Source: Bradyrhizobium paxllaeri
GTDB taxonomy: Bacteria > Pseudomonadota > Alphaproteobacteria > Rhizobiales > Xanthobacteraceae
Direction of reading: 5' to 3'
Length of the DNA: 64,000 nucleotides
Assembly: GCF_001693515.2 (NCBI RefSeq)
Contig: NZ_CP042968.1
Coordinates: 3,472,001-3,536,000 of the forward strand
Shown here one piece after another: positions 4,623 to 59,575 of the stretch. The position numbers and the translations under genes were made by a program. The notes beneath the pieces are model-generated. The model saw nothing but the letters and a program-made list of their open reading frames with translations, searched no databases and had not been told where the DNA came from. Within the stretch, counting starts at the first letter, position 1. Each line of letters opens with the position of its first letter.

Positions 4623-4985
4623 CCGGCAGAGGACGGTGTCCGGACGAAATCCTCCATACGAAGGCTTTCGGACGTGCCTGTCACGATAGGACTGCTGGAT
4701 TTCTTCGTCCGCTCGCGTCAAGCCTGAGTTGTTCACCGGAAAATACGAAGCCGTTTGGTGATGGAGCAGGGCTCCTTCGCGGGATTCCCCGCCGGATGTG
4801 CCGGCAGAGGAAAGGATCCATTATCGCGGCGCGGTATCAAAACATTAACGAGGCGTTGCCTCGCCCTTAACAAAACGTCAATGAAACCAGCCGTTTATGG
4901 TGAACCCTTTGTTAAGCGTCATGGTTTATTTTTTCTAATAGTGGCATCGCGTTCCGGTGTCGATTGAGGTTGCGTAGCCAGGACC
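4623..4985. other. intergenic stretch, no gene supported
   Basis: These 363 bases lie between two plus-strand genes. The distal part (about 4840-4945) is AT-richer than its surroundings and contains three TTAAC-type motifs near 4848, 4866 and 4912, but none pair with the N7 spacing of a full CtrA box. It most likely carries the promoter of the DUF2336 gene. I see no open frame with convincing coding character and no terminator. Confidence 0.4.
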
Positions 4986-6161
4986 ATGATTGTTCGGCAG
5001 TTCATCAGTTGGATTCGTACCGCTCCGGCAGGCGAGCGGGCAGAGGCGACGCGGGCGTTGGCGCGGGCCTGGTTGATTTCAGATCTCAGCGACGACGATC
5101 GCATCGCCGCCGAAGGCGCGCTTCTGATGCTGCTCGATGATCCGTCGCCGCTGGTCCGACAGGCGATGGCGGAAGTCTTCGCACGCAGTTCGGATGCGCC
5201 GGCCGCAATCGTGCAGGCGCTGGCGCTTGATCAGCCCTCGATCGCGCTTCCCGTCCTCGAACATTCGCCGCTTTTGATCGATGCCGACCTCGTCGATATC
5301 GTCGCCACCGGCAACAGCGATATGCAATGCGCCATCGCGCGCCGGCTCCATTTGCCGCCGTCGGTTTCCGCCGCGATTGCCGAAGTCGGCTCGGCGGCCG
5401 CAGCGCTCGAACTGATCGAAAACGCTTACGCCGAGCTGGCGCCGTTTTCCTGGGACCGCATCGTCGAACGTCACGGCCATCTCGCCGCGATCAGGGAATC
5501 GATGCTGGTGCTGGAAGGATTGCCTGCCGCGACCCGCGCGGCGCTGGTCGCCAAACTCTCCGAGACATTGGCGCAATTCGTCGTCGCCCGGAACTGGCTG
5601 AGCGCCGACCGGGCAGGGCGGCTCGCAAGCGAAGCGCGCGAGCGCTCGGCCGTGAACATCGCGGCTCGTTCGCGCGGCGAGGACATGGCCGGGCTGATAC
5701 GGCACTTGCGCGCCACCGGGCAATTGACCGCTGGCCTGATCCTGCGCGCGCTGTTGTCGGGCAATCTCGACCTGTTCGATGCTTCGCTGGCCGAACTCGC
5801 CGATCTGCCGCTGTCCCGCGTCACCGCGCTGCTGCACGACCGCGGCGGCGCCAGCCTGCAGGCGCTGCTGATCCGCGCCGGCTTCCCCGAATCGACGTTC
5901 GGCGCCTTCCGCATCGCGCTAGAGGTCAGCCATGAGACCGGCTTTGTCGATACGGTCGGCGGCGCCGCCAGATTGCGCCGCCGCATGGTCGAGCGTGTGC
6001 TGACCTATTGCGAGACCGACCGCAAGGCCGCCGAGCCGCTTCTGATCCTGCTGCGGCGCTTTGCGACCGAGTCCGCGCGCGAGGAAGCCCGCGCGTTCTG
6101 CGAGGAACTGGTCGCCGACGAAGCGTTCGTGCCCCCCGTGCGCGATCTGATCGCGGCGTAA
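4986..6161 (+). CDS. DUF2336 domain-containing protein
   Basis: A 391-residue, mostly helical soluble protein. The repeated helical pairs (for example DDPSPLVRQAMAEVFA and ALDQPSIALPVLEHSP) have the HEAT-like look of DUF2336, a family abundant in Bradyrhizobium and Caulobacter with proposed roles in motility or signal output. There is no signal peptide or membrane segment. It is monocistronic here, with a repeat element and an IS110 insertion downstream. The biochemical function is not known from sequence. Confidence 0.8.
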   Translation: MIVRQFISWIRTAPAGERAEATRALARAWLISDLSDDDRIAAEGALLMLLDDPSPLVRQAMAEVFARSSDAPAAIVQALALDQPSIALPVLEHSPLLIDADLVDIVATGNSDMQCAIARRLHLPPSVSAAIAEVGSAAAALELIENAYAELAPFSWDRIVERHGHLAAIRESMLVLEGLPAATRAALVAKLSETLAQFVVARNWLSADRAGRLASEARERSAVNIAARSRGEDMAGLIRHLRATGQLTAGLILRALLSGNLDLFDASLAELADLPLSRVTALLHDRGGASLQALLIRAGFPESTFGAFRIALEVSHETGFVDTVGGAARLRRRMVERVLTYCETDRKAAEPLLILLRRFATESAREEARAFCEELVADEAFVPPVRDLIAA

Positions 6162-9076: not shown

Positions 9077-9856
9077 TCAGGACCCGAACTGCTCGCGCAA
9101 AATGCGTTCCTCGAGGCTGTGACCGGGGTCGAACAGCATCCGCATCGAGATCGTCTTGTCGGACAAAACTTCGACGCGGCGGACATCGCGCACGTCGTCA
9201 TGGTCGGCGGCGGCGGCGACCGGGCGCTTTTCGCCCTCGAGCACCTCGATCACCACGAAGGCGGAGTTCGGGAGCAGGGCGCCGCGCCAGCGGCGGGGGC
9301 GGAACGCGCTGATCGGGGTCAGCGCCAGCAGCGCGGCATTGATCGGCAGGATCGGTCCTTGTGCGGAAAGATTGTAGGCGGTCGAGCCGGCCGGCGTCGC
9401 CACCAGGATGCCGTCGGCGATCAATTCCGCCATCCGCTCGTGTTCGTCGATCAGGATACGCAAATGCGCGGCCTGGTTGGTCTGACGGAACAGCGCGACC
9501 TCATTGATGGCATGATGCAGATGCACCGCGCCGTGCACGTCGGTGGCGCGCATCAGCAGCGGATTAATCAGCGATTCCTTCGCCGCAGCCAGCCGCGTGT
9601 GCAAATCATGCGTGGTGAATTCGTTCATCAGGAAGCCGACGGTGCCGCGATGCATGCCATAGATCGGCTTGCCGGAGCGCATATGGGCGTGCAGCGTCTG
9701 CAGCATCAATCCGTCGCCGCCGAGCGCCACCACGACGTCGGCATCGGCGGCAGCATGGTTGCCGTAGAGCTTGGTCAGTTGCGCCAGCGCGGCCTGCGCC
9801 TCGGCGCTTGGGCTCGCGACGAAGGCGATCCGGTCGTATCGCTTGGAAGTGGCCAT
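9077..9856 (-). CDS. nadK: NAD kinase
   Basis: A 259-residue enzyme that phosphorylates NAD to NADP with ATP in the cytosol. The diagnostic GGDG appears in [15 protein letters not shown], followed by [14 protein letters not shown] and the NE-containing [11 protein letters not shown] segment; [15 protein letters not shown] completes the family pattern. The length is normal for bacterial NadK. The gene lies 124 bases after the adenylate cyclase gene on the same strand. Confidence 0.93.
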
Positions 9857-9980
9857 CGGACGACGAACTCATAGCTGGCGCCGGATTGCGCCGCGCTCGT
9901 CTATACACCATGGGCAGGCTTGTCGAGATGGCCGGAACGCCCTTTCGCGCCGGTAACGTAAACCGGCGGTCATCGGAACG

Positions 9981-12110
9981 TCATTTTTCCTGCAATGTCC
10001 GGATCGGGTCCCAGTCCGGGCCGGGCGGGTTTTGGGCCAATTCCCGGGCCCGCGCGGCAAACAGCGCCGCCGGGCGGTCGATATCGGCCGACCGGCCGAA
10101 ACATTCGGCGGCGCGTTCGAATTCGCGGCCCCGCCAGTGCGCCAGCCCCTCGGCGTAGTCGGCGATCAATGTCTGCTGCGCGGGCGTCAGCCCGGCCGCC
10201 AGCGCCAGCAACTGGTAGATTTTCAACGCCTGGGTTCGTCCCTTGACCCTGATGGCATCGAGTTCGCGCCAGGCGAAGGCCTCGCCGCAAAGCGCAACCG
10301 TGGTCTCCGAAGCGATCACGGTGGTGCCGTAGAATTTGTTGGCGCCCTCCAGCCGCGATGCCAGGTTTACAGCGTCGCTCATCACGGAGTAGTTGAAGCG
10401 CCGCCGCGATCCGAAATTGCCGACCAGCGCCTCGCCGGAATTGATGCCGATCCGCTGCGCCAGTTTGTATCCCTGGAAGAGGGGGGAAGACGTGTTGAGC
10501 TCGGCAAGCTGCTTGCAGCAATCCAGCGCAGCGTGCGCCGCATTGGCGGCGTGATCAGGATCGTCGGCCGGCGCGCCGAACACCGCCACGACGGAGTCGC
10601 CGATATATTTGTCGACATATCCGCCATGGCTCTCGATGACGTCGGTCATCGCCGACAAATATTCGTTCATCAGCTCCATCAGGCCGTCGGGCGACATCTT
10701 CTCCGCGATCAGCGAAAATCCTTCGATGTCGGAGAAGAACACCGTCACGTTGCGGGTCTCGCCGCCGAGTTCCGGCAGTTTGCTCGACGACAGCATGCGG
10801 TTGATGACGTGCGGGGCGAGATAGAGCGCAAAGCTCTTTTGCAAGAGGCGGCGGTCCTTGTCGGCGACGACGAAGCGGAAGCCGATCGTGGCGGACAACG
10901 CGGCAAGGCTGGCCAGGAACGGCTCGACCACCGGCAGTGCCAGAGCGTGGTTGAAGGCGATGGTCGCAACCGCCACGCCTAGCACCATCATGCCTGTCCA
11001 GGCCGCGAAGGCGATGACAGGCCGGAACAGCCAGGCAGCGGCCGCGGCGAGCGCGGCAACGAGCGTTGCGATCAGCAGACGGGGAATCGGCCCCGGTTCA
11101 ACCACGCCATTGCGCGCGATCAGGTTGTTGACGGCGGTGGCGTGGATGTAGACGCCTGCGATCGTGCTCTTCTTGAAGCTGGCTGCGACCGGCGTGCTCT
11201 CAGCTGTGCAGCGCGGGACGCGCGCGCCTTCAATGCCGGTGGCAAAGCGCTTGGACGTGAAGCGGCGGTCCTCGATATCGAGCACGGTGCCGAAGATCAC
11301 GACCTTGCCGGCGAACCAGCGCCGGAAATAATCCTTGTCGTTCTTGACGGCACAGGCGCGCAGATCGGCAAAGGTGAAGGTTGGAATATCGTCGCCGCCG
11401 CCTTCGAAATTCAGCGTCATCGTGTTCGGCACGCGGCCCGGAACCTGGTAACCGGCCAGCGTCAGTCTGCCACGCTCGTCGAATTCGGGTGCCGCGCCCA
11501 GCGCCCGCGAGGCCAGCTCGACCGCCATCGTGGGCACCCTCGTGCTGTTGACGGTAAAACTCAGCGGCATGCGCCGCAGGATATCGTCGCTGTCGACGTG
11601 GACATTGAGCGGGCGGATGTTCTGCTGCTGGCGAACCGCGACCCGCTGTCCCGGCGACGGCCGGACCGGCTGGTTGCCGCCGAGGACTTCTCCCAGCACC
11701 ACCTTGCCGTTCGCCGACGCACCGGCAAGCGCGCGAAGAAAGTCGCGGTCGAATCCGCGGACCTTCTCGCCGAGCGTGCCTTCGCCGAATGGTATCTCCG
11801 ACTGCTCGATCGATTTCGGAATCACCATGTCGAAGCCTGCGACCTTGGCGCCGCCTTCGAGCGTCGCCGACAGCACGCGACCGATCTCGCCGGTCCAGGT
11901 CAGCATCGGCGCGTCCTTGAACGGCGCGGTGCGCAGGCTCTCCTCGTCCATCGCGACGACGACCGCCGGCGAGGTGGCGGGATCCTGCCGTCGGCCGAAC
12001 ACATCCCAGCGCAGCGCCGTGAGGATATCGATGGAGAGCCCGCGGATCGGCCGGGCCGCCGGCGAAACCGACGCGGCGGCGCAAATCAGCGCGATGGCAG
12101 CGATCGCCAT
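9981..12110 (-). CDS. CHASE2-domain adenylate/guanylate cyclase
   Basis: A 709-residue membrane cyclase. An N-terminal membrane anchor is followed by a CHASE2 sensor (residues about 30-330, including VVAMDEESL and VVIFGTVLDIEDRRF), a block of hydrophobic segments near 340-420, and a class III cyclase domain. The cyclase has VTVFFSDIEGFSLIAEKMSP (metal-binding Asp) and YIGDSVVAVFGAP (second Asp). The product is a cyclic nucleotide, probably cAMP. An open frame continues upstream to 12356, but it overlaps the FecR gene out of phase, so I use the ATG at 12110. Pairing with an upstream FecR gene is typical of this family. Confidence 0.88.
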   Translation of the reverse strand: MAIAAIALICAAASVSPAARPIRGLSIDILTALRWDVFGRRQDPATSPAVVVAMDEESLRTAPFKDAPMLTWTGEIGRVLSATLEGGAKVAGFDMVIPKSIEQSEIPFGEGTLGEKVRGFDRDFLRALAGASANGKVVLGEVLGGNQPVRPSPGQRVAVRQQQNIRPLNVHVDSDDILRRMPLSFTVNSTRVPTMAVELASRALGAAPEFDERGRLTLAGYQVPGRVPNTMTLNFEGGGDDIPTFTFADLRACAVKNDKDYFRRWFAGKVVIFGTVLDIEDRRFTSKRFATGIEGARVPRCTAESTPVAASFKKSTIAGVYIHATAVNNLIARNGVVEPGPIPRLLIATLVAALAAAAAWLFRPVIAFAAWTGMMVLGVAVATIAFNHALALPVVEPFLASLAALSATIGFRFVVADKDRRLLQKSFALYLAPHVINRMLSSSKLPELGGETRNVTVFFSDIEGFSLIAEKMSPDGLMELMNEYLSAMTDVIESHGGYVDKYIGDSVVAVFGAPADDPDHAANAAHAALDCCKQLAELNTSSPLFQGYKLAQRIGINSGEALVGNFGSRRRFNYSVMSDAVNLASRLEGANKFYGTTVIASETTVALCGEAFAWRELDAIRVKGRTQALKIYQLLALAAGLTPAQQTLIADYAEGLAHWRGREFERAAECFGRSADIDRPAALFAARARELAQNPPGPDWDPIRTLQEK

Positions 12111-12159
12111 CCTGTTGCGCGTGCTGCGCCTTACTCTCAAGCTGGAAGGTCCGGCACGC

Positions 12160-12828
12160 CTATTCCATCCGCAGCAGACGGCCGACGATCGGCGTCGCGC
12201 CGGGCTTGGCCTGCTCATCGACGCGGAACACGATCTTCGACGACTTGAACGAGGCGGCGTAGAGCCCACCGGGCGCCAGCGCGACGTTCTCGCTGGCGAA
12301 GTCGACGAACCGTCCCTTGAGCTGGGTGCCGCCCAGGCTGATTTCCTGACGCTCATCCGGCACGTCGAGGCGCCGGATGACCAGCTTGCCGCGTCCCTTG
12401 GCCTCCACCAATGGCGAGGCGCCGTAAAGCGTGAGCTGCGGCTGCGGCAAGGACGCCTTGTTGGCGTCGACGCTGCGCAGCACGGTGGCGGCGACGCCGC
12501 TGGTCTCCCGCGTCGTCACGTTCGCCTGGTTGGCATCGCAATTGGTCTTCTCGGCCTTGACGTCGGCGAGGTGGACGGCGCTCTCCTCGGTGCCGACGAC
12601 GACGGTCCCGGTGCCGGTGATCGTCTCGCGCCGGCATGATTTCAGGTAGCTGAGAATGACGGAGCCGCCGTCGCCGATCTTGATCACGGCCTTGGGCGTC
12701 ACGTAATCCATGAACTCGGCACCGGTAACCTTGCCCTGAACGTCTTCGACGACTGCGACCGGCGATTGGGCCACCGCCGGAGAAGCCAGCGCCAGCAGGC
12801 CGAGACAGACAGCGATCGTAGGTTTCAT
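12160..12828 (-). CDS. FecR domain-containing exported protein
   Basis: A 222-residue protein with a clear signal peptide (MKPTIAVCLGLLALASPAVA). Residues about 25-110 match a FecR domain: VQGKVTGAEF, GDGGSVILSYLKSC and GTGTVVVGTEES. An in-frame ATG at 12843 is a possible alternative start. The gene is 49 bases upstream of the CHASE2 cyclase gene. FecR-like periplasmic proteins beside CHASE2 cyclases recur in Bradyrhizobium and suggest that the FecR protein sees a ligand for the CHASE2 sensor; the ligand is unknown. Confidence 0.8.
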   Translation of the reverse strand: MKPTIAVCLGLLALASPAVAQSPVAVVEDVQGKVTGAEFMDYVTPKAVIKIGDGGSVILSYLKSCRRETITGTGTVVVGTEESAVHLADVKAEKTNCDANQANVTTRETSGVAATVLRSVDANKASLPQPQLTLYGASPLVEAKGRGKLVIRRLDVPDERQEISLGGTQLKGRFVDFASENVALAPGGLYAASFKSSKIVFRVDEQAKPGATPIVGRLLRME

Positions 12829-30603: not shown

Positions 30604-31548
30604 CTATCGTTTCGGTCGCGGCGCGGCCGGTGTCGCGGCAGGCGGCGTGAGACGGCGCGGAATCAGCACGCGCTGACCGACTGCCAGCGGTGCACTGTCG
30701 GAATATTGATTGGCCTGGGTAAGCGACCACAGCGGCACGTGGTTGAGTGCCGCAAGCCGCTGCAAGGTGTCGCCCGAACGGGCGAGTTGCTGCGTCCCGC
30801 TGTCCCACAGCTCCAGCGGGGCATCGGGAGGAACGACGTAGCGCAGCGGCAGCGCCTCTCCCTTGGCCGGCAAAGGCGTCGCCGGAAGCTGTGCAATTGC
30901 CGTCACCAATTGCTCGTGGACGGAATCCATCTTGTCGATGTTGATGTGGGTGACTTCCTCGTGCTGCTTCAAATCGAAGCTCGCGTAGTGGCCCTGATAA
31001 CCTTGCTCCGCCACCACATCGCCACCGCCCAATACGCTGTCGGACAGGAAAATGTTGATGAAACGCTCGACGTTCAGCGGCACCTTCGGGCTTGCGTGGG
31101 CTGGATCGATGGTGACCACGAGGCTTACCGAGATATTTTCGGACTTCAGAATCCCGGCGAATGTCAAGGCGCACAGCCCGCCCATCGAATGACCGATCAG
31201 GACGATCGGAACAGCATTGTCACGGTAATCGCGGATAGCCTGATCCGCGATCAGCCGGCAAATGGTGAATTCGTAGACGTCGGCCCGGATGCCGGCTTCC
31301 TGCAGGCGCTTGGTCAGGCGGTCCATCCCGCGCGAAAAGATCGGACCGAGCGCGCCGCGGAACAGGTAGACGCGTGCTTGCGGCTGGATCGCGGCCGGGG
31401 GCGCGTCAGGAGCGACGGTTGCGACAGCCGTGGCCGTGCGTGCGACCGGATCGGCGACCGCAAGATTGCAGGCAGCCGACAAGATGCAGGCGGCAAGGGC
31501 CGTACGGATCATCACCGCCGCAACCTGCGTCGGACTTCCCATGTACAT
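30604..31548 (-). CDS. exported lipase-like alpha/beta hydrolase with C-terminal LysM-like domain
   Basis: A 314-residue protein with a signal peptide (ALAACILSAACNLAVA). The hydrolase core has RVYLFRGALG, the nucleophile elbow VLIGHSMGGLCALTF, and VVTIDPAHA. After residue about 240 comes a LysM-like module: SGDTLQRLAALNHVPLWSL, QANQYSD, LAVGQRVLIPRRL. This would anchor the enzyme to peptidoglycan or a glycan. The gene is convergent with the methyltransferase-fold gene (9 bases apart) and lies downstream of a paralogue without the LysM part. Confidence 0.78.
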   Translation of the reverse strand: MYMGSPTQVAAVMIRTALAACILSAACNLAVADPVARTATAVATVAPDAPPAAIQPQARVYLFRGALGPIFSRGMDRLTKRLQEAGIRADVYEFTICRLIADQAIRDYRDNAVPIVLIGHSMGGLCALTFAGILKSENISVSLVVTIDPAHASPKVPLNVERFINIFLSDSVLGGGDVVAEQGYQGHYASFDLKQHEEVTHINIDKMDSVHEQLVTAIAQLPATPLPAKGEALPLRYVVPPDAPLELWDSGTQQLARSGDTLQRLAALNHVPLWSLTQANQYSDSAPLAVGQRVLIPRRLTPPAATPAAPRPKR

Positions 31549-39122: not shown

Positions 39123-39180
39123 CACAAAATCAGTCCGATTGAGACACAATGTCGGCGAGTAGGGTTGAAACGCTGCCCGT
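39123..39180 (+). repeat. upstream repeat, copy 1 (before the first fused receptor gene)
   Basis: This 58-base segment (CACAAAATC, TTGAGACACAATGTC, GCGAGTAGG, TGAAACGCTGCCCGT) recurs at 41898-41955 with only a few differences. It lies 75 bases before the gene at 39255, and in the other copy 48 bases before the gene at 42003. It was duplicated with the gene and probably contains shared promoter or leader signals. Confidence 0.75.
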
Positions 39181-39254
39181 TCGCGCGACGCGAAGCGCGT
39201 AAAAACAAAAACAATAAAAATACATTGTGGGGATACAAAAGGGGGGGCGCCGCT

Positions 39255-41600
39255 ATGCGGGCTAGTATCGATTCACGTGGACAATTCGAGCAAATATCCT
39301 GGTCTCCGGCAGGCGGGGCCGTGCGCCGGCTTTTCGCCGCGCCTTTGGGCGGGGCGGCTGCGGCGCTGATGCTGGCCGCGATGGCGACGCCGGCTTTCGG
39401 GCAGGGCCTACCGGCGAGCCCGGGCGCCAACGAGATCCGGATCGGCAATACCATGCCCTATACCGGTCCGGCTTCCGCCTATGGCGTGATCGGCAAGGTG
39501 ATGGCGGCCTATTTCGAGAAGGTCAACGCCGAGGGTGGCATCAGGGGCCGCAAGATCAATTTCATTTCCTATGATGACGCCTACAATCCGACCAAGACGA
39601 TGGAGGCGACCCGCAAGCTCGTCGAGGAAGACAACGTTCTCTTTATCCTGGCGAGCCTCGGCACCAATACCAGCCAGGCCGTTCATCCCTATTTGAACGC
39701 CAAGAAGATTCCCCAGCTCTTCGTCGCCTCGGGCGCGACGATGTGGGACCAGCCACGCGACTTTCCTTGGACCATGGGCTTCCTGCCCAGCTACCAGACC
39801 GAAGCCCACATCTATTCGCAGTATCTGCTGGAGAACCATCCGCGCAGCAAGGTCGCGGTGCTCTATCAGGACGACGGTTTCGGCAAGGACTACCTCAAGG
39901 GCCTGAAGGACGGTCTCGGCGGCAAGATTCCGATCGTGGCCGAGGCTCCCTACAAGGTGACGGACGTCAATATCGACGCCCAGATCGCCAAGCTCAAGGC
40001 TTCGGGCGCCGACGTCTTCATGCAATTCACGACGCCGAAATTCGCCACCATGGCGATCAAGCGAAATGCCGAACTCGGCTGGAAGCCGATCCATTTCCTC
40101 GCCTCGGTGTCCGAATCGGTATCGTCGGTGATGGTGCCGGCGGGCGTGGAAAACGCCGAAGGAATCATGTCGGCGATGTACCGCTTGGAGGGTGAGGATG
40201 CGCAGGCCGCCGGGCCCGCGGTGTTCCGCGAATGGAGCGCCTTCATGGAGCGCTATGTTCCGAGCATCAGCAAGTCGAACGGCCAGGCCGTCTACGCCTA
40301 TCTGAACTCCAGGCTCGTTATCGAGGTACTGAAGAACTGCGGCGACGACTTCTCGCGCGAAAACATCATGAAGCAGGCCCGTTCGATCAAGGGCTTGCAG
40401 ATTCCGATGATGGTGCCGGGCATCCTGATCAACACCAGCGCGTCCGATCATGCGACGATCGAACAGATGCGGATGATGCGATTCACCGGTGGACACTGGC
40501 AGTTCTTTGGCCCGGTGCGCAGCGGCATCGACCCGGGCACCGTCAGCGAATCCTTCAAGACCATCTTCAAGTACGGCACCGCCACCAAGCGCGATCTGGC
40601 CAACCAGCTCAATGCCAACACCGTGAGCTTGATGACGGGTTCGTTCGGTTCGACCTATGCCCAGGTCGGCGCGGATCTCGCGTCCGTGCTCGACAACGGC
40701 ACCCATCTGCGGATCCTGCCGGTGATGGGCCGCGGATCGGTTCAGGCGGTGGCGGATATCCTGCTGCTGCGCGGCGTCGACGTCGGCATCGTCCGCAAGG
40801 ACACGCTGGCCTATCTCGACCGCAAGGATTTCGCCAAGGACATCCGCAACCAGTTCGTCTACGTCGCCAAGATGTTCAATGAGGAAATGCACGTCCTCGC
40901 GCCGCGGACGATCGCCAGCATGAAAGATCTCGACGGCAAGACCGTGGTGGTCGATCTGCCCGACAGCTCCACCTTCGTGACCGCGATCAACGTGTTCGAG
41001 CGTCTCGGGATCAGGCCGCATCTGATCTATCAGGAACCGCGACTGGCGCTGGACATGCTGCGCAAGGGCGAGGTCGACGCCATCGTCGCGATCGAAGGCA
41101 AGCCGTTGCAATGGCTGAACCAGATCAACGACCGCAACCTGCATCTGGTGCCGGTCGAATACGCCAAGACTCTGCAGGAGGAGTATCTGCCGTCCAAGCT
41201 TTCGTCGGCGGACTATCCGAACCTGGTGCCGGAAGGCGGCTCGGTCGAGACGGTTGCGGCAGAAGCGGTGCTGGCCTCGTATAACTGGGCGCCGAACAGC
41301 GACCGCTACCGGCGCCTGTCGCTGCTGGTCGACACCATGTTCGACAAGGTCGGGCAATTGCAGCGTCCGCCGTTCCATCCGAAGTGGAAGGAAATGGCGC
41401 CGCGCGCAACCATATCCGGCTGGACCCGCTTCAAGGCAGCGCAGGAATGGCTCGACCGCAACATGCCGCTGGCTGCGGGTTCAGCCGTGTCGTCGGCATC
41501 GGGTGCTGCACCGACGCCGGGTGCTGCGCCGCAGGATCCCCTGTATCGTGAGTTCCTGGAATGGCGTGCCAACCGCGCCAAGGCCAGTGCCAACAGGTAA
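39255..41600 (+). CDS. dual periplasmic receptor: LivJ-type ABC receptor fused to TAXI (TRAP) receptor, copy 1
   Basis: A 781-residue exported protein. The signal region (residues about 20-52, LMLAAMATPAFG) precedes a type I periplasmic-binding domain of the Leu/Ile/Val family (about 60-420): EIRIGNTMPYTGPASAYGVIG, VNAEGGIRGRKINFISYDDA, AVLYQDDGFGKDYLKGL. From about residue 455 a second receptor follows, with TAXI-family features: LMTGSFGSTYAQVGADLA, GVDVGIVRKDTL, LDGKTVVVDLPDSSTFV, KGEVDAIVAIEGKPL. A Pro/Ala linker and the conserved tail DPLYREFLEWRANRAKA close it. No permease gene is adjacent. An upstream in-frame ATG (39165) lacks support. The ligands are unknown. Confidence 0.85.
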   Translation: MRASIDSRGQFEQISWSPAGGAVRRLFAAPLGGAAAALMLAAMATPAFGQGLPASPGANEIRIGNTMPYTGPASAYGVIGKVMAAYFEKVNAEGGIRGRKINFISYDDAYNPTKTMEATRKLVEEDNVLFILASLGTNTSQAVHPYLNAKKIPQLFVASGATMWDQPRDFPWTMGFLPSYQTEAHIYSQYLLENHPRSKVAVLYQDDGFGKDYLKGLKDGLGGKIPIVAEAPYKVTDVNIDAQIAKLKASGADVFMQFTTPKFATMAIKRNAELGWKPIHFLASVSESVSSVMVPAGVENAEGIMSAMYRLEGEDAQAAGPAVFREWSAFMERYVPSISKSNGQAVYAYLNSRLVIEVLKNCGDDFSRENIMKQARSIKGLQIPMMVPGILINTSASDHATIEQMRMMRFTGGHWQFFGPVRSGIDPGTVSESFKTIFKYGTATKRDLANQLNANTVSLMTGSFGSTYAQVGADLASVLDNGTHLRILPVMGRGSVQAVADILLLRGVDVGIVRKDTLAYLDRKDFAKDIRNQFVYVAKMFNEEMHVLAPRTIASMKDLDGKTVVVDLPDSSTFVTAINVFERLGIRPHLIYQEPRLALDMLRKGEVDAIVAIEGKPLQWLNQINDRNLHLVPVEYAKTLQEEYLPSKLSSADYPNLVPEGGSVETVAAEAVLASYNWAPNSDRYRRLSLLVDTMFDKVGQLQRPPFHPKWKEMAPRATISGWTRFKAAQEWLDRNMPLAAGSAVSSASGAAPTPGAAPQDPLYREFLEWRANRAKASANR

Positions 41601-41650
41601 AGGCCAGCGCCAACAGATAATCAGGCCGGTCAGCACGGTTTGACCACAGG

Positions 41651-41680
41651 ACGGCCCGCTTCGGCGGGCCGTTCTTGTTT
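41651..41680 (+). terminator. intrinsic terminator after fused receptor copy 1
   Basis: ACGGCCCGC-TTCG-GCGGGCCGT is followed by TCTTGTTT. Just before it, a short tandem duplication of the gene's last codons (AAGGCCAGTGCCAACAGGTAA and a variant, 41579-41620, quoted only in part) suggests slippage at the 3' end. Confidence 0.85.
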
Positions 41681-41897
41681 CTGGAATCCATTGCCCTACG
41701 CATGCCGTATTTTGGTCGGTATGTCGGCAGCGGGTGCTCGGGAATCCAATGATAGGTTGTATCGGCGCAACCATGCCGCGAATCGATGTTCGCGGGGCGG
41801 CCGATCCCGGTTTTGGTAACGCTTTTGGTAACACTAATGTCGGCATTGTCGCGGCGGAACACACGGTCGACTAACTGCGCGCCGCGACAGGTCTTGA

Positions 41898-41955
41898 CAC
41901 AAAATCAATCCAGTTGAGACACAATGTCAGCGAGTAGGACTGAAACGCTGCCCGT
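41898..41955 (+). repeat. upstream repeat, copy 2 (before the second fused receptor gene)
   Basis: This is the partner of the segment at 39123-39180. In this copy a TTGACA hexamer overlaps the left edge (41894-41899), a possible -35 that the first copy lacks. The rest of the 402-base gap between the two receptor genes carries only the first gene's terminator and unrecognised sequence. Confidence 0.75.
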
Positions 41956-42002
41956 CTCGCTGCTCGAAAAATGGCACAGTTTGTATTGGGGGACAGGTGA
42001 AA

Positions 42003-44378
42003 ATGTGGGCTTTGATCGACACTAGTAGGGCGGCGGTGCAATTGTCCGGGTCAGCGGCCCGTGGCAGCTTGCGCCGGCTTTTCAGCGCGCCGCGGCGCAA
42101 TGCAGTGGCCGCCTTGGTCGTGGCCGCGATGGCTGGTTCGGCGATCAGCAATCAGGCGCACGCGGCGCCTCCGGGCCCCAACGAAATCCGCATCGGTAAC
42201 ACCGCTCCCTATACCGGTCCGGCCTCGGCCTATGGCGTCATCGCCAAGGTCATCGCGGCCTATCTGGACAAGATCAACGCCGAAGGCGGGATCAATGGCC
42301 GCAAGGTGAGCATGATCACCTATGACGACGCCTACGAGCCCACCAAGACGATGGAGATGACCCGCAAGCTCGTCGAGGACGATCAGGTTCTCTTGACCTT
42401 GGGCACCATCGGTACGAACACGAACGCCGCGATCCAGCCCTATCTGAACTCAAAGAAGGTTCCGCAGCTTTTTGCGTTGTCGGGCGCTGCGGCCTGGGAC
42501 CAGCCGCGCGAGTTTCCCTGGACCATCGGTTTTCTGCCGACCTACACCGCTGAAGCTCAGATCTTTGCGCAGTACCTGCTGGAGAACCATCCCCGCAGCC
42601 GGATCGCCGTCCTCTATCAGGACGACGGAATGGGCAAGGAATACCTGAAAGGCCTGAAGGACGGCCTGGGCGGCAAGATGCCGATCGTGTCCGAGGCGCC
42701 CTACAAGGTGACCGACACCAATATCGATGCGCAGATGGCCAAGATGAAGGCCTCCGGCGCCGACGTCCTCATCGAGTTCACCACGCCGAAATTCGCGGTC
42801 ATGGCGATCCGTCGATCCGCCGAACTCGGTTGGAAGCCGCTGCAGTTCGCCGCCTCGATCTCCAATTCGTACTCGGCCGTGATTCAGCCGGCGGGCCCGC
42901 AAAATGCGGAAGGCCTGTTGTCTGCGGCGTACAGACTCGAGGGCGAAGACTCGGCTGCGGCGGGCGATGCGGTGTTCCGCGAGTGGAGCGCCTTCATGCA
43001 GCGCTACGTCCCGAGCGTGAGCAAGACCAACGGCCAGGCCGTCCTCGGCTATCTGGTCGGCAGGTTGACGGTCGAGGTGCTGAAGAACTGCGGCGACGAC
43101 CTGTCGCGCGAAAACATCATGAAGCAGGCCCGCTTGCTCAAGGGCATCCAGCTTCCGATGATGGTGCAGGGCATCCTGATCAATACCAGCCCGTCCGACC
43201 ACGCGCCGATCGAGCAGATGCGGATGATGCGCTTCACCAACGGCCAGTGGCAGCACTTCGGCCCGGTGCGCAGCGGCATCGATCCGGGCGCGGTCAGCGA
43301 TTCCTTCAAGACCATCTTCAAGTATGGCACCGCCACCAAGCGCGATTTGGCCAACCAGCTCAATGCCAACACCGTGAGCTTGATGACGGGTTCGTTCGGC
43401 TCGACCTATGCCCAGGTCGGCGCGGACCTCGCGTCCGTGCTCGACAGCGGCACCAGCCTGCGGATCCTGCCGGTGATGGGCCGTGGATCGGTGCAGGCGG
43501 TGTCGGACATCCTGCTGCTGCGCGGCGTCGACGCCGGCATCGTTCGCAAGGACACGCTGTCCTATCTCGACCGCAAGGACTTCGCCAAGGATATCCGCAA
43601 CCAGTTCGTCTACGTCGCCAAGATGTTCAACGAGGAGATGCACGTCCTCGCGCCCAGGACGATCACCAGCATGCGCGATCTCGACGGCAAGACCGTGGTG
43701 GTCGATCTGCCCGACAGCTCGACCTTCGTGACCGCGATCAACGTGTTCGAGCGTCTCGGTATCAGGCCGCATCTGATCTATCAGGAGCCGCGGCTGGCGC
43801 TGGACATGCTGCGCAAGGGCGAGGTCGACGCCATCGTCGCGATCGAAGGCAAGCCGTTGCAATGGCTGAACCAGATCAACGACCGCAACCTGCATCTGGT
43901 GCCGGTCGAGTACGCCAAGCAGGTCCAGGAGGAGTATCTGCCGTCCAAGCTTTCGTCGGCGGACTACCCGGGCCTTGTGCCGGAAGGCGGCTTCGTCGAG
44001 ACGATCGCGGCCGAGGCGGTGCTGGCCTCGTATAACTGGGCGCCGAACAGCGACCGCTACCGCCGCCTGGCGCTGCTGGTCGACACCATGTTCGACAAGG
44101 TGTCGCAGTTGCAGCGTCCGCCGTTCCATCCGAAGTGGAAGGAAATGGCGCCACGCGCGACGGTATCGGGATGGACGCGCTTCAAGGCGGCGCAGGAATG
44201 GCTCGACCGCAACATGCCGCTGCCTCCGGGCTCGGCTGTGTCGGCGGCATCGGGCGCCGTTCCGGCGCCGGCCCCGGTGGCTGCCCCCACGGCACTTGCC
44301 CCGCAGGATCGCGATCCGCTGTACCGCGAATTCCTAGAGTGGCGCGCGAACCGCGCCAAGGCCAGCAGCAACCGGTAA
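42003..44378 (+). CDS. dual periplasmic receptor: LivJ-type ABC receptor fused to TAXI (TRAP) receptor, copy 2
   Basis: A 791-residue paralogue of the gene at 39255, from the ATG at 42003 (a GTG six bases upstream is an alternative; the ATG aligns with copy 1). It has the same order: signal region (AALVVAAMAGSAISNQAHA), Leu/Ile/Val-type domain (EIRIGNTAPYTGPASAYGVIA, VAVLYQDDG region as IAVLYQDDGMGKEYLKGL), TAXI domain from about residue 455, Pro/Ala linker and DPLYREFLEWRANRAKA tail. The first halves of the two proteins differ at many positions, but from about residue 430 to 750 they are nearly identical even in DNA. This suggests recent gene conversion or strong constraint on the TAXI half. 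Confidence 0.85.
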   Translation: MWALIDTSRAAVQLSGSAARGSLRRLFSAPRRNAVAALVVAAMAGSAISNQAHAAPPGPNEIRIGNTAPYTGPASAYGVIAKVIAAYLDKINAEGGINGRKVSMITYDDAYEPTKTMEMTRKLVEDDQVLLTLGTIGTNTNAAIQPYLNSKKVPQLFALSGAAAWDQPREFPWTIGFLPTYTAEAQIFAQYLLENHPRSRIAVLYQDDGMGKEYLKGLKDGLGGKMPIVSEAPYKVTDTNIDAQMAKMKASGADVLIEFTTPKFAVMAIRRSAELGWKPLQFAASISNSYSAVIQPAGPQNAEGLLSAAYRLEGEDSAAAGDAVFREWSAFMQRYVPSVSKTNGQAVLGYLVGRLTVEVLKNCGDDLSRENIMKQARLLKGIQLPMMVQGILINTSPSDHAPIEQMRMMRFTNGQWQHFGPVRSGIDPGAVSDSFKTIFKYGTATKRDLANQLNANTVSLMTGSFGSTYAQVGADLASVLDSGTSLRILPVMGRGSVQAVSDILLLRGVDAGIVRKDTLSYLDRKDFAKDIRNQFVYVAKMFNEEMHVLAPRTITSMRDLDGKTVVVDLPDSSTFVTAINVFERLGIRPHLIYQEPRLALDMLRKGEVDAIVAIEGKPLQWLNQINDRNLHLVPVEYAKQVQEEYLPSKLSSADYPGLVPEGGFVETIAAEAVLASYNWAPNSDRYRRLALLVDTMFDKVSQLQRPPFHPKWKEMAPRATVSGWTRFKAAQEWLDRNMPLPPGSAVSAASGAVPAPAPVAAPTALAPQDRDPLYREFLEWRANRAKASSNR

Positions 44379-44432: not shown

Positions 44433-44640
44433 TTTCAGCAACGTCCAGGCTGTTCCTTTGCCTGTCATGCCGCATTGACGCTGCGGTCAGTCCGGCTGCC
44501 TTGCGCGCCGGCGAGTGTGGCGAACGGATGGCGTCATGCTGACAACGCAGGGCTCAGCCGTATAAAATAGTGTATCGGCAAGCATCAAAGCGCCGGACAT
44601 GGTCCCGCGCCACCACGCCAAAAATCTTCGGAGGAAGTTC

Positions 44641-45867
44641 ATGTCGGCTCTGCCACTTTCGGGCATCAAAATTCTCGACCTGACGCGGGTGCTCGCGGGG
44701 CCCTTGTCGGCGCAGATGCTGGCCGATCTCGGCGCCGAGGTGATCAAGATCGAGCGTCCCGGCGGCGGTGACGACGCGCGCGCCTTCGGACCGCCGTACC
44801 TCAGGGATCCCGAGGGCAAGCAGAACAACAACAACTCGTTCTACCTCTGCGCCAACCGCAACAAGAAATCCGTCACCGTCAATATCGCGAGCCCGGAAGG
44901 GCAGGAGATCATCCGCGAGCTCGCCAAGAGCTGCGACGTGATGATGGAGAACTACAAGGTCGGCGATCTCAAGCGCTACAAGCTCGACTATGAAACGATC
45001 AAGGCGATCAATCCCGGCATCATCTATTGCTCGGTGACCGGCTTCGGCCAGACCGGGCCTTACGCGCCGCGCGCCGGCTACGACGCCATCCTGCAGGCGA
45101 TGGGCGGGCTGATGAGCGTCACCGGCCATATCGACGGCGAGCCGGGCGCCGGCCCGATGAAGGTCGGCCCCTCCATCGTCGACTACATGACCGGCATGAA
45201 CTCCTCGATCGGCATTCTGGCCGCGCTCTATCACCGCAAGGCCAATGGCGGGGAGGGGCAGCATGTCGACGTCTGCCTGTTCGACACCGTGATCGCCGCG
45301 CTGTCGCATTACGCGCAGATCTTCCTCGTCAACGGCCAGACCCCGCCGCGTCGCGGCACCTGGGGCAATGGCGGCATGCCGGCCGGCGTGTTCCGCTGCA
45401 CCGACGGCGAACTGATGCTGGTGGTCGGCAATGACGGCCAGTTCCAGCGCACCTGCGCGGTGCTGGGCGCGCCTGAGCTCGCGACCGATCCGCGCTTCGT
45501 CAAGAACAACGACCGTGTCGTCCACGGCAAGGAGATCATGGCGATCTTCGCCGGTCACTTCCTGAAGAAGCCCGTCGCTCATTGGCTGGAAGAGCTGGAG
45601 AAGGCCGGCGTGCCCTCAGGCCCGATCAACGATTTCTCGCAGGTGTTTTCCGATGAGCATGTCCGCTCGCGCGGCATGCAGGTCAAGGTCGACCACCCCT
45701 TCGAGCCCGACCTGTCGCTGATCCGCAATGCCATCACCTTCTCCGGCACCCCGGTGAAGGAATATCGCGCGCCACCGCTGCTCGGCGCCGATACGAAGGA
45801 CGTGCTGGCGACGATCGGCTATGACGCGGCCAAGGTGGAAGCGCTGAAGGCGCAGAAGATCGTATAG
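44641..45867 (+). CDS. CaiB/BaiF family (class III) CoA transferase
   Basis: A 408-residue enzyme from the ATG at 44641, with GGAGG upstream. It opens LSGIKILDLTRVLAGPLSAQ and DLGAEVIKIERPGGGDDAR, the standard class III start. It continues with KKSVTVNIASPEGQEI, the catalytic aspartate region in CDVMMENYKVGDL, and CSVTGFGQTGPYAPRAGYD. These enzymes move CoA between carboxylic acids in catabolism. The neighbour pattern (tartrate dehydratase, LysR) does not identify its acids. A strong terminator follows. Confidence 0.92.
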   Translation: MSALPLSGIKILDLTRVLAGPLSAQMLADLGAEVIKIERPGGGDDARAFGPPYLRDPEGKQNNNNSFYLCANRNKKSVTVNIASPEGQEIIRELAKSCDVMMENYKVGDLKRYKLDYETIKAINPGIIYCSVTGFGQTGPYAPRAGYDAILQAMGGLMSVTGHIDGEPGAGPMKVGPSIVDYMTGMNSSIGILAALYHRKANGGEGQHVDVCLFDTVIAALSHYAQIFLVNGQTPPRRGTWGNGGMPAGVFRCTDGELMLVVGNDGQFQRTCAVLGAPELATDPRFVKNNDRVVHGKEIMAIFAGHFLKKPVAHWLEELEKAGVPSGPINDFSQVFSDEHVRSRGMQVKVDHPFEPDLSLIRNAITFSGTPVKEYRAPPLLGADTKDVLATIGYDAAKVEALKAQKIV

Positions 45868-58118: not shown

Positions 58119-58657
58119 CCTCATTCCTCCTTGCCACTAAAGGCAATGGAGACGAATCGAGGGCGGAGCTCGCACTGTCTCGATGGCCGACTTCACATGC
58201 GCCATCGCAGTGCGCCTTGCCTCGCCCACTATGACCGGTCGCGACATCAAAACGTGGCACCGAGCACACGTTACGACCGCAAATCATCAAATCGGGCGTC
58301 GGAAATTAAGATGATACGCGTCGAGGCCGGCGTCAATAGAGCAATGAGGAACCTGCGGCTCGTGGATATGCGCTGCACGATGCACAAGCCGGCGAGCATC
58401 AGCCGGCAGATCGTCTGATGATGCGCCGCACCAAACGACCGCGCGTTCACAATTCACCCAACAGTGCGTGCTTTCTGCTCCCAATCGCGCTAAACTCGCA
58501 ACGCAGGTCGCGACAAGTTTCGTCCGGCTAAGCTCCTTTCGCTGAACTTGGGTTTGCCGTACCCGGCTCGACCGCGACTTTCGCACATCAGGGCGGAGGC
58601 GCGCGGTTGCGGCGCGTCGTTCTGACCGCCGCAACTTGAAAGCACGGGAGGGTGCGC
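58119..58657. other. intergenic stretch between coxM and the DUF2189 gene
   Basis: These 539 bases separate two divergent genes and must hold the oxidase operon promoter. I found no FNR/FixK box (TTGAT-N4-ATCAA) and no other clear regulator site. Frames open on the minus strand (58287-58724 and 58490-59119) overlap the DUF2189 gene and look like shadows. No RNA gene or repeat was recognised. Confidence 0.4.
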
Positions 58658-59575
58658 ATGGCCACTCTGTATTCCGACAGCATCGCAAGGGTAGGACGGC
58701 ACGTATTCGGCGAGGCCGCCACATATCCGGTTCGCAAAATCGAACTGTCCGACCTCGGCGAGGCGCTGCGCCTGGGGTGGGAAGACTTCAAGGCAATGCC
58801 GAGTCACGCCGTCGTCGTGTGCGTGATTTATCCCGTTCTCGGTATTGCCCTGTTCAGGATGGTCCTCGGCTATTCGATACTGCCGCTGCTGTTTCCGCTG
58901 GCAGCCGGGTTTGCCTTGCTTGGACCCTTTGCCGCGATCGGTCTCTACGAGCTCAGCCGCCGCCGCGAGCGCGGTGAGGAACCTTCGGTGTCGGATGCAC
59001 TTCACGTGCTGCGTGCTCCCGCTTTCGGCGGCATGATCGAACTCGGCGTGCTCCTGCTCGTTCTGTTCGGGGCCTGGATCGGGGTCGCGAACGCGATCTA
59101 TGTTTCGATCTTCGGCCATGCGCCGGCTGCAAGCATCCCTGATTTCGCAACGCGCGTGCTGACGACGTCAGACGGGTGGGCGCTCATCATCGTTGGTTGC
59201 GGCATCGGCTTCCTGTTCGCAGTCGTGGCGCTCTGCGTCAGTGCCGTGTCGTTCCCGTTGATGCTCGACCGGCACGCGACGGCGATCGACGCGATCCGCA
59301 CCTCGCTGCGCGTTGTGATGAAGAATCCGGTTGCGATGGCCGCCTGGGGCCTGATCGTCGCCGCGCTGCTGGTGATCGGTTCGATACCGCTCTTTGTGGG
59401 CCTCGCCGTCGTTCTGCCGGTGCTCGGCCATGCCACCTGGCATCTGTACCGGAAAGCGGTGGAGCCGGATCCCAATCCGCCACAGGAAGAGGAGCCTCAC
59501 CTGCGCAAAGGACATCGCTACGCGGCGGATTTCCCGGCCAATCTCTTCCCGTGGAGCCGTGAGCGCGAGCCGTAG
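58658..59575 (+). CDS. DUF2189 membrane protein
   Basis: A 305-residue protein from the ATG at 58658, with GGGAGG upstream (a GTG at 58652 is possible). After a soluble start (VRKIELSDLGEALRLGWEDF), there are about six hydrophobic helices, including ALLGPFAAIGLYELSRRRERGE. This combination marks DUF2189, often found beside cytochrome oxidase or other respiratory genes. It is divergent from coxM. The role is unknown; a function in oxidase assembly or membrane organisation is only a guess. Confidence 0.85.
   Translation: MATLYSDSIARVGRHVFGEAATYPVRKIELSDLGEALRLGWEDFKAMPSHAVVVCVIYPVLGIALFRMVLGYSILPLLFPLAAGFALLGPFAAIGLYELSRRRERGEEPSVSDALHVLRAPAFGGMIELGVLLLVLFGAWIGVANAIYVSIFGHAPAASIPDFATRVLTTSDGWALIIVGCGIGFLFAVVALCVSAVSFPLMLDRHATAIDAIRTSLRVVMKNPVAMAAWGLIVAALLVIGSIPLFVGLAVVLPVLGHATWHLYRKAVEPDPNPPQEEEPHLRKGHRYAADFPANLFPWSREREP

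Follow-up and report, generated by a model that had tools for sequence, protein, structure and literature searches.

Much less is known of the ligands of TAXI receptors than of those of the DctP-type receptors of TRAP transporters, and, according to PMC12344293, the first link between a TAXI protein and a permease other than a TRAP permease, GltS, dates only from 2025. Here we describe two tandem genes, A and B, in a 64-kb window (the whole stretch of DNA analyzed; G000:C1:3472001-3536000) of an 8.38-Mb single-contig Bradyrhizobium genome, each of which joins a receptor of the Leu/Ile/Val type (LIV-type), known from ATP-binding cassette (ABC) transporters, to a TAXI receptor. The second half belongs to the same Pfam family as the TAXI-TRAP receptors VcGluP and TtGluBP and keeps the equivalents of Tyr45, Ser75 and Glu125, but it differs from them in having a C-terminal tail, an arginine for Gln93 and a receptor fused in front. 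Also unlike the TAXI-TRAP receptors, no TRAP permease was found beside the fusion, and part of its subfamily has a partner with Sel1-like repeats. The first half shares a complete PF13458 domain with the LIV-type (HAAT) ABC binding proteins and is up to 48-52% identical to stand-alone LIV-type members in its own genome and in relatives; the fusion differs from these in lacking an adjoining ABC permease and in carrying a second, C-terminal receptor.

Three other described proteins are partly comparable. BP0403, the elongated TAXI protein of a TAXI-GltS system, is likewise a longer protein that ends in a TAXI domain and has no TRAP permease; however, its N-terminus is a PilO-like segment with a helical dimerization region, not a receptor, and its neighbor is gltS (PMC12344293). 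GlnPQ uses two tandem substrate-binding domains and in this resembles A and B, which also have two binding domains per chain (PMC8025302), but it has no pairing of LIV and TAXI domains, and its domains belong to the importer itself. ExoR, a regulator with Sel1-like repeats, acts by binding the sensor kinase ExoS (PMC7327166). It is comparable to the partner described below as a Sel1-like repeat protein that works through protein binding, but it is another protein, and the present partner has a membrane segment.

Among the best-ranked matches in the open-access literature (subscription papers lay outside this scope), the text available contained no paper on a LIV-TAXI fusion or on a TAXI/Sel1-like pair. 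New here are the linkage of a TAXI subfamily to a Sel1-like gene, a tail that, judged by its distribution, is older than the fusion, the homogenized TAXI halves of tandem copies, and a coenzyme A (CoA)-transferase that is constant beside one group of fusions (type I).

Architecture and spread of the fusion

The two genes, their halves and their tails are placed as follows.

39255..41600, + strand: fusion gene A (open frame from TTG 39165; likely start ATG 39255)
39432..40490, + strand: LIV-type half of A (PF13458; Pfam, residues 90-442 of the frame from 39165, E 2.3e-52)
40632..41414, + strand: TAXI half of A (PF16868; Pfam, residues 490-750, E 8.3e-11)
41535..41585, + strand: conserved tail DPLYREFLEWRANRAKA of A
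41997..44378, + strand: fusion gene B (GTG start, 793 amino acids; ATG 42003 possible, 791 amino acids)
42183..43244, + strand: LIV-type half of B (PF13458; Pfam, residues 63-416, E 1.3e-51)
43383..44159, + strand: TAXI half of B (PF16868; Pfam, residues 463-721, E 2.4e-10)
44313..44363, + strand: conserved tail of B, the same DPLYREFLEWRANRAKA as in A

The frame of A at 39165-41600 gives 811 amino acids from its TTG and 781 from the likelier ATG at 39255. An original prediction, made from the letters alone, had assigned two receptor classes to each protein, and both PF13458 and PF16868 were indeed found in A and in B. PF13458 (Peripla_BP_6) is near full length in both (profile positions 1-341 and 1-342 of 343), and PF16868 (NMT1_3) scored 42.5 and 40.9 bits, above the Pfam gathering score of 27. 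The NCBIfam model TIGR02122 TRAP_TAXI matched with E ~1e-13, but its scores of 51.1 and 50.3 bits lie under the cut-off of 84.35, and for this reason we call the TAXI half divergent. In a single-sequence search with the second half of B, no TAXI chain was among the PDB sequences hit at E ≤ 1. A 25-row profile built from the wider subfamily, the two fusions included, matched the solved TAXI receptors 1us4/1us5 (4e-14) and 8s4j (4.5e-13). From the Pfam match and from the subfamily profile reaching solved receptors, we therefore conclude that the second half of A and B is, by homology, a divergent TAXI receptor, as had been predicted.

The junction is clean, a whole LIV-type protein being joined to the mature start of a stand-alone TAXI relative (EYDPAKVSESLKAIFQFG vs GIDPGAVSDSFKTIFKYG). 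Judged by eye from their N-termini, both proteins are probably exported to the periplasm. In an AlphaFold2 model of B, most 10-residue blocks of the first half had a predicted local distance difference test score (pLDDT) of 65-94, the lowest being 40; 346 residues fell below 50, mostly in the second half (shallow 21-row alignment).

The fusion was found in 46 of 265 genomes of the genus (match E ≤ 1e-150), single-contig genomes among them; the 46 include G453, merely a contig-end piece of the second half. Up to three candidates were scored per genome in this survey, up to two in that of the class and up to five in that of the Sel1-like partner. In the class sample, 42 of 385 genomes matched at E ≤ 1e-60, both halves being matched only in the window's own genome. 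With two candidates at most, none of the other 384, one of which belongs to the same genus, matched across both halves. Second-half matches in long frames occurred elsewhere, with 809 amino acids in G841, 1361 and 601 in G918 and 1093 in G201; in G201 (L138) the actual TAXI frame has 454 amino acids.

A chance or assembly fusion of two adjoining genes could be suspected from the broken copies in some draft genomes (L060, L063), but both of these loci hold runs of N inside both copies, and recurrence of the same fusion in 46 genomes, single-contig ones included, refutes it. The prediction that the fusion is no assembly artefact, drawn from its two copies, is thus borne out, and the window's genome is itself a single contig. 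Draft assemblies break at the near-identical TAXI halves, as the N runs in both tandem copies of L060 and L063 indicate. We considered gene decay in Bradyrhizobium lablabi (L060) and Bradyrhizobium jicamae PAC68 (L063, 99% identical over B) and do not claim it, both copies holding N runs; L065 holds no N, and its fusion may be a genuine interruption.

Loci L050-L071 all come from Bradyrhizobium and contain either the fusion or fragments of it at contig ends, and two single-contig genomes (L189, L190) have three tandem copies. Type I fusions, the window's among them, are at least 70% identical to B and the divergent type II fusions 62-68%; "groups" is used as a label here, since no more than three type II loci are represented in a tree. 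Some contigs were fetched twice (L065/L188, L051/L144, L066/L187, L068/L186, L069/L178), so that the 25 type I loci comprise at most 23 distinct ones.

A TAXI subfamily linked to Sel1-like genes

The window's genome also has a stand-alone TAXI gene (L075 7517-8695; G000:C1, ~8.21 Mb) that is 52% identical to B over residues 428-788 and comes after a Sel1-like gene (L075 6227-7369). In 297 genomes of the sampled order, which we take to be Hyphomicrobiales, the TAXI subfamily was matched in 67 (E ≤ 1e-30) and the Sel1-like partner in 88 (E ≤ 1e-6, with a profile built from proteins adjoining TAXI genes). A partner match lay within 3.5 kb at 65 of 116 TAXI places, 64 of them on the same strand by coordinates; four of the places are fusions, none with a Sel1-like gene within that distance. 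Counted by genome, the pair occurs within 3.5 kb in 53 of the 67 TAXI genomes, and a Sel1-like match is present anywhere in 63 of the 67 as against 25 of the 230 genomes without TAXI; a Fisher test on this co-occurrence ignores genome relatedness. With longer flanks the pair was seen in 15 of 20 order-wide loci, and several of the other five stop at a contig end.

The linkage extends to the fusions themselves. A Sel1-like gene lies directly upstream of type II fusions, on the same strand, in 14 of 16 loci (L173-L187 and L140, with L186 and L140 as exceptions). In the window genome the partner gene lies away from the fusions, beside the stand-alone TAXI gene. A stand-alone TAXI relative is kept in all 24 fusion genomes tested, at least 75% identical to that of the window genome in 22 of them and 58% identical in G408 and G033. 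By these neighborhoods, the TAXI half of A and B falls in a TAXI subfamily that apparently lacks a permease and frequently lies beside a putative Sel1-like membrane protein. The original prediction had listed sensing among several possible functions, and this option gains weight because the subfamily pairs with the Sel1-like protein and no permease of its own was found beside it. The hand-over of a solute between two transport systems, another of these functions, found no support in the present analysis. The Sel1-like partner, the type I CoA-transferase and the homogenized TAXI halves, which emerged when neighbors and copies were surveyed, go beyond what had been seen before.

Simple hydropathy gave one hydrophobic segment in 21 of 24 partners and two in L075, L129 and L134, and the partners show low-complexity stretches and a conserved C-terminal repeat region. 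As separate observations, in L123 the TAXI/Sel1-like pair adjoins an HWE histidine kinase with a PAS fold (L123 6521-8680), a possible signaling link noticed at this locus only, and L075 also encodes a 474-residue PF16868 protein (9727-11151) that has a hydrophobic segment at its N-terminus and is extended at its C-terminus, similar to a 465-residue frame in L007 (own genome, 6.56 Mb). The 474-residue protein could be an independent, membrane-bound TAXI sensor; as a partner of the stand-alone TAXI it was rejected because other genes lie between.

Both fusions end in the tail for which a docking role had been suggested. The pattern [LM][FYLM]xx[FY]xx[WY] (loosely LFxxFxxW), chosen after the sequences had been seen, was present near the C-terminus in 22 of 30 stand-alone TAXI loci, 24 of which have the Sel1-like partner within 3.5 kb. 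A stricter first pattern missed diverged LLxxFxxW- and LLxxYxxW-like tails in L068/L186 and L138. The intact fusion ends inspected carry the tail, which is diverged and followed by an extension in L068/L186. Among the eight own-genome PF16868 loci examined, out of 18 matches, only the stand-alone relative has a tail and the other seven do not; L078, a further subfamily member, also lacks it. Because 22 of the 30 stand-alone relatives share it, the tail, on this distribution, predates the fusion and is a feature of the TAXI subfamily; it is conserved in both copies, as had been noted, but is not peculiar to the fusion. A docking site in the tail is plausible. Its promotion to a proven docking peptide for the Sel1-like protein was rejected, since co-occurrence gives that no support.

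The tandem copies differ in how their two halves have evolved. Across six tandem loci, the first halves of A and B share 73-74% identity and have a synonymous divergence (dS) of 0.39-0.63, as compared with 94-98% and a dS of 0.06-0.27 for the TAXI halves; this alignment left out L021, L022 and L024 (near-duplicates) and L025, L026, L060, L063 and L065 (broken or duplicate). TAXI dS was below first-half dS in all 12 within-genome pairs from eight single-contig genomes, narrowly so in G508. In a tree of first halves from these genomes, copies group with their counterparts from other genomes. In the TAXI tree, copies group within G408 (100), G532 (100), G031 (97), G508 (73) and G019 (61), those of G000 and G449 are joined at 92 and still pair by kind there, and G493 does not follow. 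Separate trees of 17 loci, which agree with this, left out, among others, L051, L052, L056, L059, L067 and L068. Rates and trees together bear the signature of gene conversion restricted to the second half. A shared adapter may have been favored by selection, and we put this no more firmly because only the second half may be similar enough to recombine.

Docking receptor, scavenger or spacer

Because of the Sel1-like linkage, the lack of an own permease and a partly kept pocket, we tentatively favor, with less than even confidence, a reading in which a common TAXI adapter carries variable receptor heads and docks on a membrane protein, the whole serving as a sensor or scaffold and not as an importer. 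Each protein would be a periplasmic two-receptor chain composed of a variable LIV-type head and a permease-less TAXI half as the shared adapter. The TAXI half, perhaps with the tail, would dock on the C-terminal, probably periplasmic, Sel1-like repeats of the membrane protein, which in the window genome would be supplied from the locus beside the stand-alone TAXI gene (~8.21 Mb). Ligand binding in either receptor would then alter the complex and either send a signal through the membrane protein or determine where it is placed, and tandem copies with different heads could let one partner read more than one solute. If this is true, a permease-less TAXI receptor with a repeat-bearing membrane partner would imply sensing instead of transport for part of the TAXI family, and the fusion would be a natural experiment, in soil and symbiotic bacteria, with different receptor heads on one conserved adapter. 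A broader proposal, that TAXI and Sel1-like partner form an undescribed receptor system of the order in which the permease-less TAXI reports its ligand through the repeats, while Bradyrhizobium adds interchangeable ABC-type heads and gene conversion keeps the adapter uniform, seems to us rather unlikely.

Several observations concerning the partner, transport and the ligand pocket weigh against the docking-receptor reading. As for the partner, no Sel1-like gene is present within 3.5 kb of 51 of the 116 TAXI places, and type I fusions, the window's included, adjoin the CoA-transferase and not a Sel1-like gene. Six of 10 distinct partners match PF08238 (Sel1) at 18.2-30.2 bits, below the cut-off of 30.7 (best in L147), and of the other four, three match nothing and the fourth hits a TPR model with a score under the cut-off. 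We lowered our confidence because the Sel1 label is thus sub-cut-off in every partner scanned. No signaling domain was recognized in the partner proteins. Tail and partner do not go together across the 30 stand-alone loci, 17 having both, five the tail only, seven the partner only and one neither. Finally, homogenization of the TAXI halves may be explained by sequence similarity alone.

Concerning transport, the constant neighbor of type I fusions is the following gene.

44599..45867, + strand: class III CoA-transferase (PF02515), downstream neighbor throughout type I fusions

It lies 3' of the fusion on the same strand in 25 of 25 type I loci, at less than 1 kb except for ~3 kb in L189. Among solved proteins it is closest to formyl-CoA and succinate--hydroxymethylglutarate CoA-transferases; because the best NCBIfam model, succinate--glutarate CoA-transferase, reached 401 bits against 750 required, we treat the enzyme as putative, its substrate unassigned by family. 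The constancy of this gene is the reason why carboxylic-acid uptake with catabolism stays the main rival. A and B would be two-ligand scavengers: an ABC permease (LivHMGF) would take over the solute of the LIV-type half, and a TRAP or other secondary permease that of the TAXI half. The genes for both permeases would lie elsewhere, and the CoA-transferase would then activate the acid. Permeases in trans do exist, since three TAXI genes of the same genome adjoin DctM genes (7.55, 3.86 and 3.65 Mb) and a LIV-type relative of the fusion sits in a complete ABC operon (L076, own genome) with two related receptors, 48-50% identical to the fusion's LIV-type half. GlnPQ offers a precedent for two tandem binding domains (PMC8025302), although there the domains are part of the importer. 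An ABC ATPase gene lies ~3 kb away in seven of 15 type II loci (L177, L181-L185, L187), on the opposite strand in six (ABC_tran confirmed by domain scan for L177 and L187), and a TRAP link is possible at L131, where a DctP-type receptor gene (4718-5851; PF03480, E 8.8e-48) adjoins the subfamily TAXI gene on a 5.9-kb contig of a genome without a Sel1-like partner match.

Permeases themselves were not seen beside the fusions. Pfam-scanned window neighbors at 35.4-51.3 kb comprise an rRNA methylase, YCII, DUF454, the class III CoA-transferase, an enolase superfamily member, LysR, an alpha/beta hydrolase and DAHP synthase, with no permease of any kind, in keeping with the absence of an adjacent permease reported earlier; gltS was also absent from these neighbors, no GltS query having been made on other loci. 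Eight DctM and two Liv permease proteins of the window's genome were used as queries against 74 sources (L050-L071, L119-L148, L173-L192, L075 and part of the window; limited flanks, some with contig ends). The single match was a TRAP permease in L142, which follows its own DctP-like gene and was rejected on that ground as a partner of the subfamily TAXI. LivM and LivH had no match in the 74 sources, which include the type II loci with a nearby ABC ATPase. Since no permease was found next to the window genes or at those other fusion loci that were searched, and since the TAXI subfamily is linked to a Sel1-like gene, we regard the scavenger as a serious possibility that is nevertheless somewhat doubtful.

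Concerning the pocket, VcGluP residues given in PMC11574862 were mapped via the 25-row subfamily alignment. Y45, S75 and E125 correspond to Tyr471, Ser498 and Glu547 in B, and the glutamate is kept in 25 of 25 aligned sequences. Gln93, whose replacement by alanine weakens VcGluP binding 990-fold (PMC11574862), corresponds to Arg517 in B and is also Arg in the stand-alone L075 and L145-L147, and of the 25 rows, 10 have R and 10 have Q in this column. Other residues also occupy the positions of V44, Y46, H123, G156, D157, Y200 and M201, and the TAXI half of B has no confident AlphaFold2 model (mostly pLDDT < 50). Changes at so many positions, the critical Gln93 among them, and a score under the TIGR02122 cut-off would suit a TAXI half that is a mere spacer or scaffold and binds no ligand, leaving the LIV-type half as the working receptor. 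This is improbable in our view, given that the Tyr45, Ser75 and Glu125 equivalents persist, that several VcGluP ligand contacts run through the main chain (PMC11574862), and that the nonsynonymous divergence (dN) of the TAXI half is much smaller than its dS. One may reasonably guess, but not more than guess, that the TAXI half binds a ligand carrying an additional acid group.

Other features of the window and of related loci

Around the fusion genes, a repeated upstream block and a possible terminator were noted.

39125..39179, + strand: upstream block of A (~49/55 bases equal to the block before B, by eye)
41900..41954, + strand: upstream block of B (same block as before A, by eye)
41648..41675, + strand: possible terminator after A (12-pair stem, then T-rich)

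Overall, the terminator scan gave six sites against a mean of 5.6 in shuffles, i.e. no excess. An M20-type peptidase gene is located upstream of type I fusions in L054 (3633-4826), L064, L065, L139, L189 and L192, and a RidA-like gene 3' of the CoA-transferase in L053, L054, L057, L058, L059, L060 and L061 (PF01042 confirmed for L057 only). Elsewhere in the window, one protein combines a CHASE2 domain with an adenylate/guanylate cyclase domain (9981-12356), 4986-6161 encodes a DUF2336 protein and 58652-59575 a DUF2189 membrane protein, and at 30604-31548 a LysM domain is carried on an alpha/beta-hydrolase-like protein.

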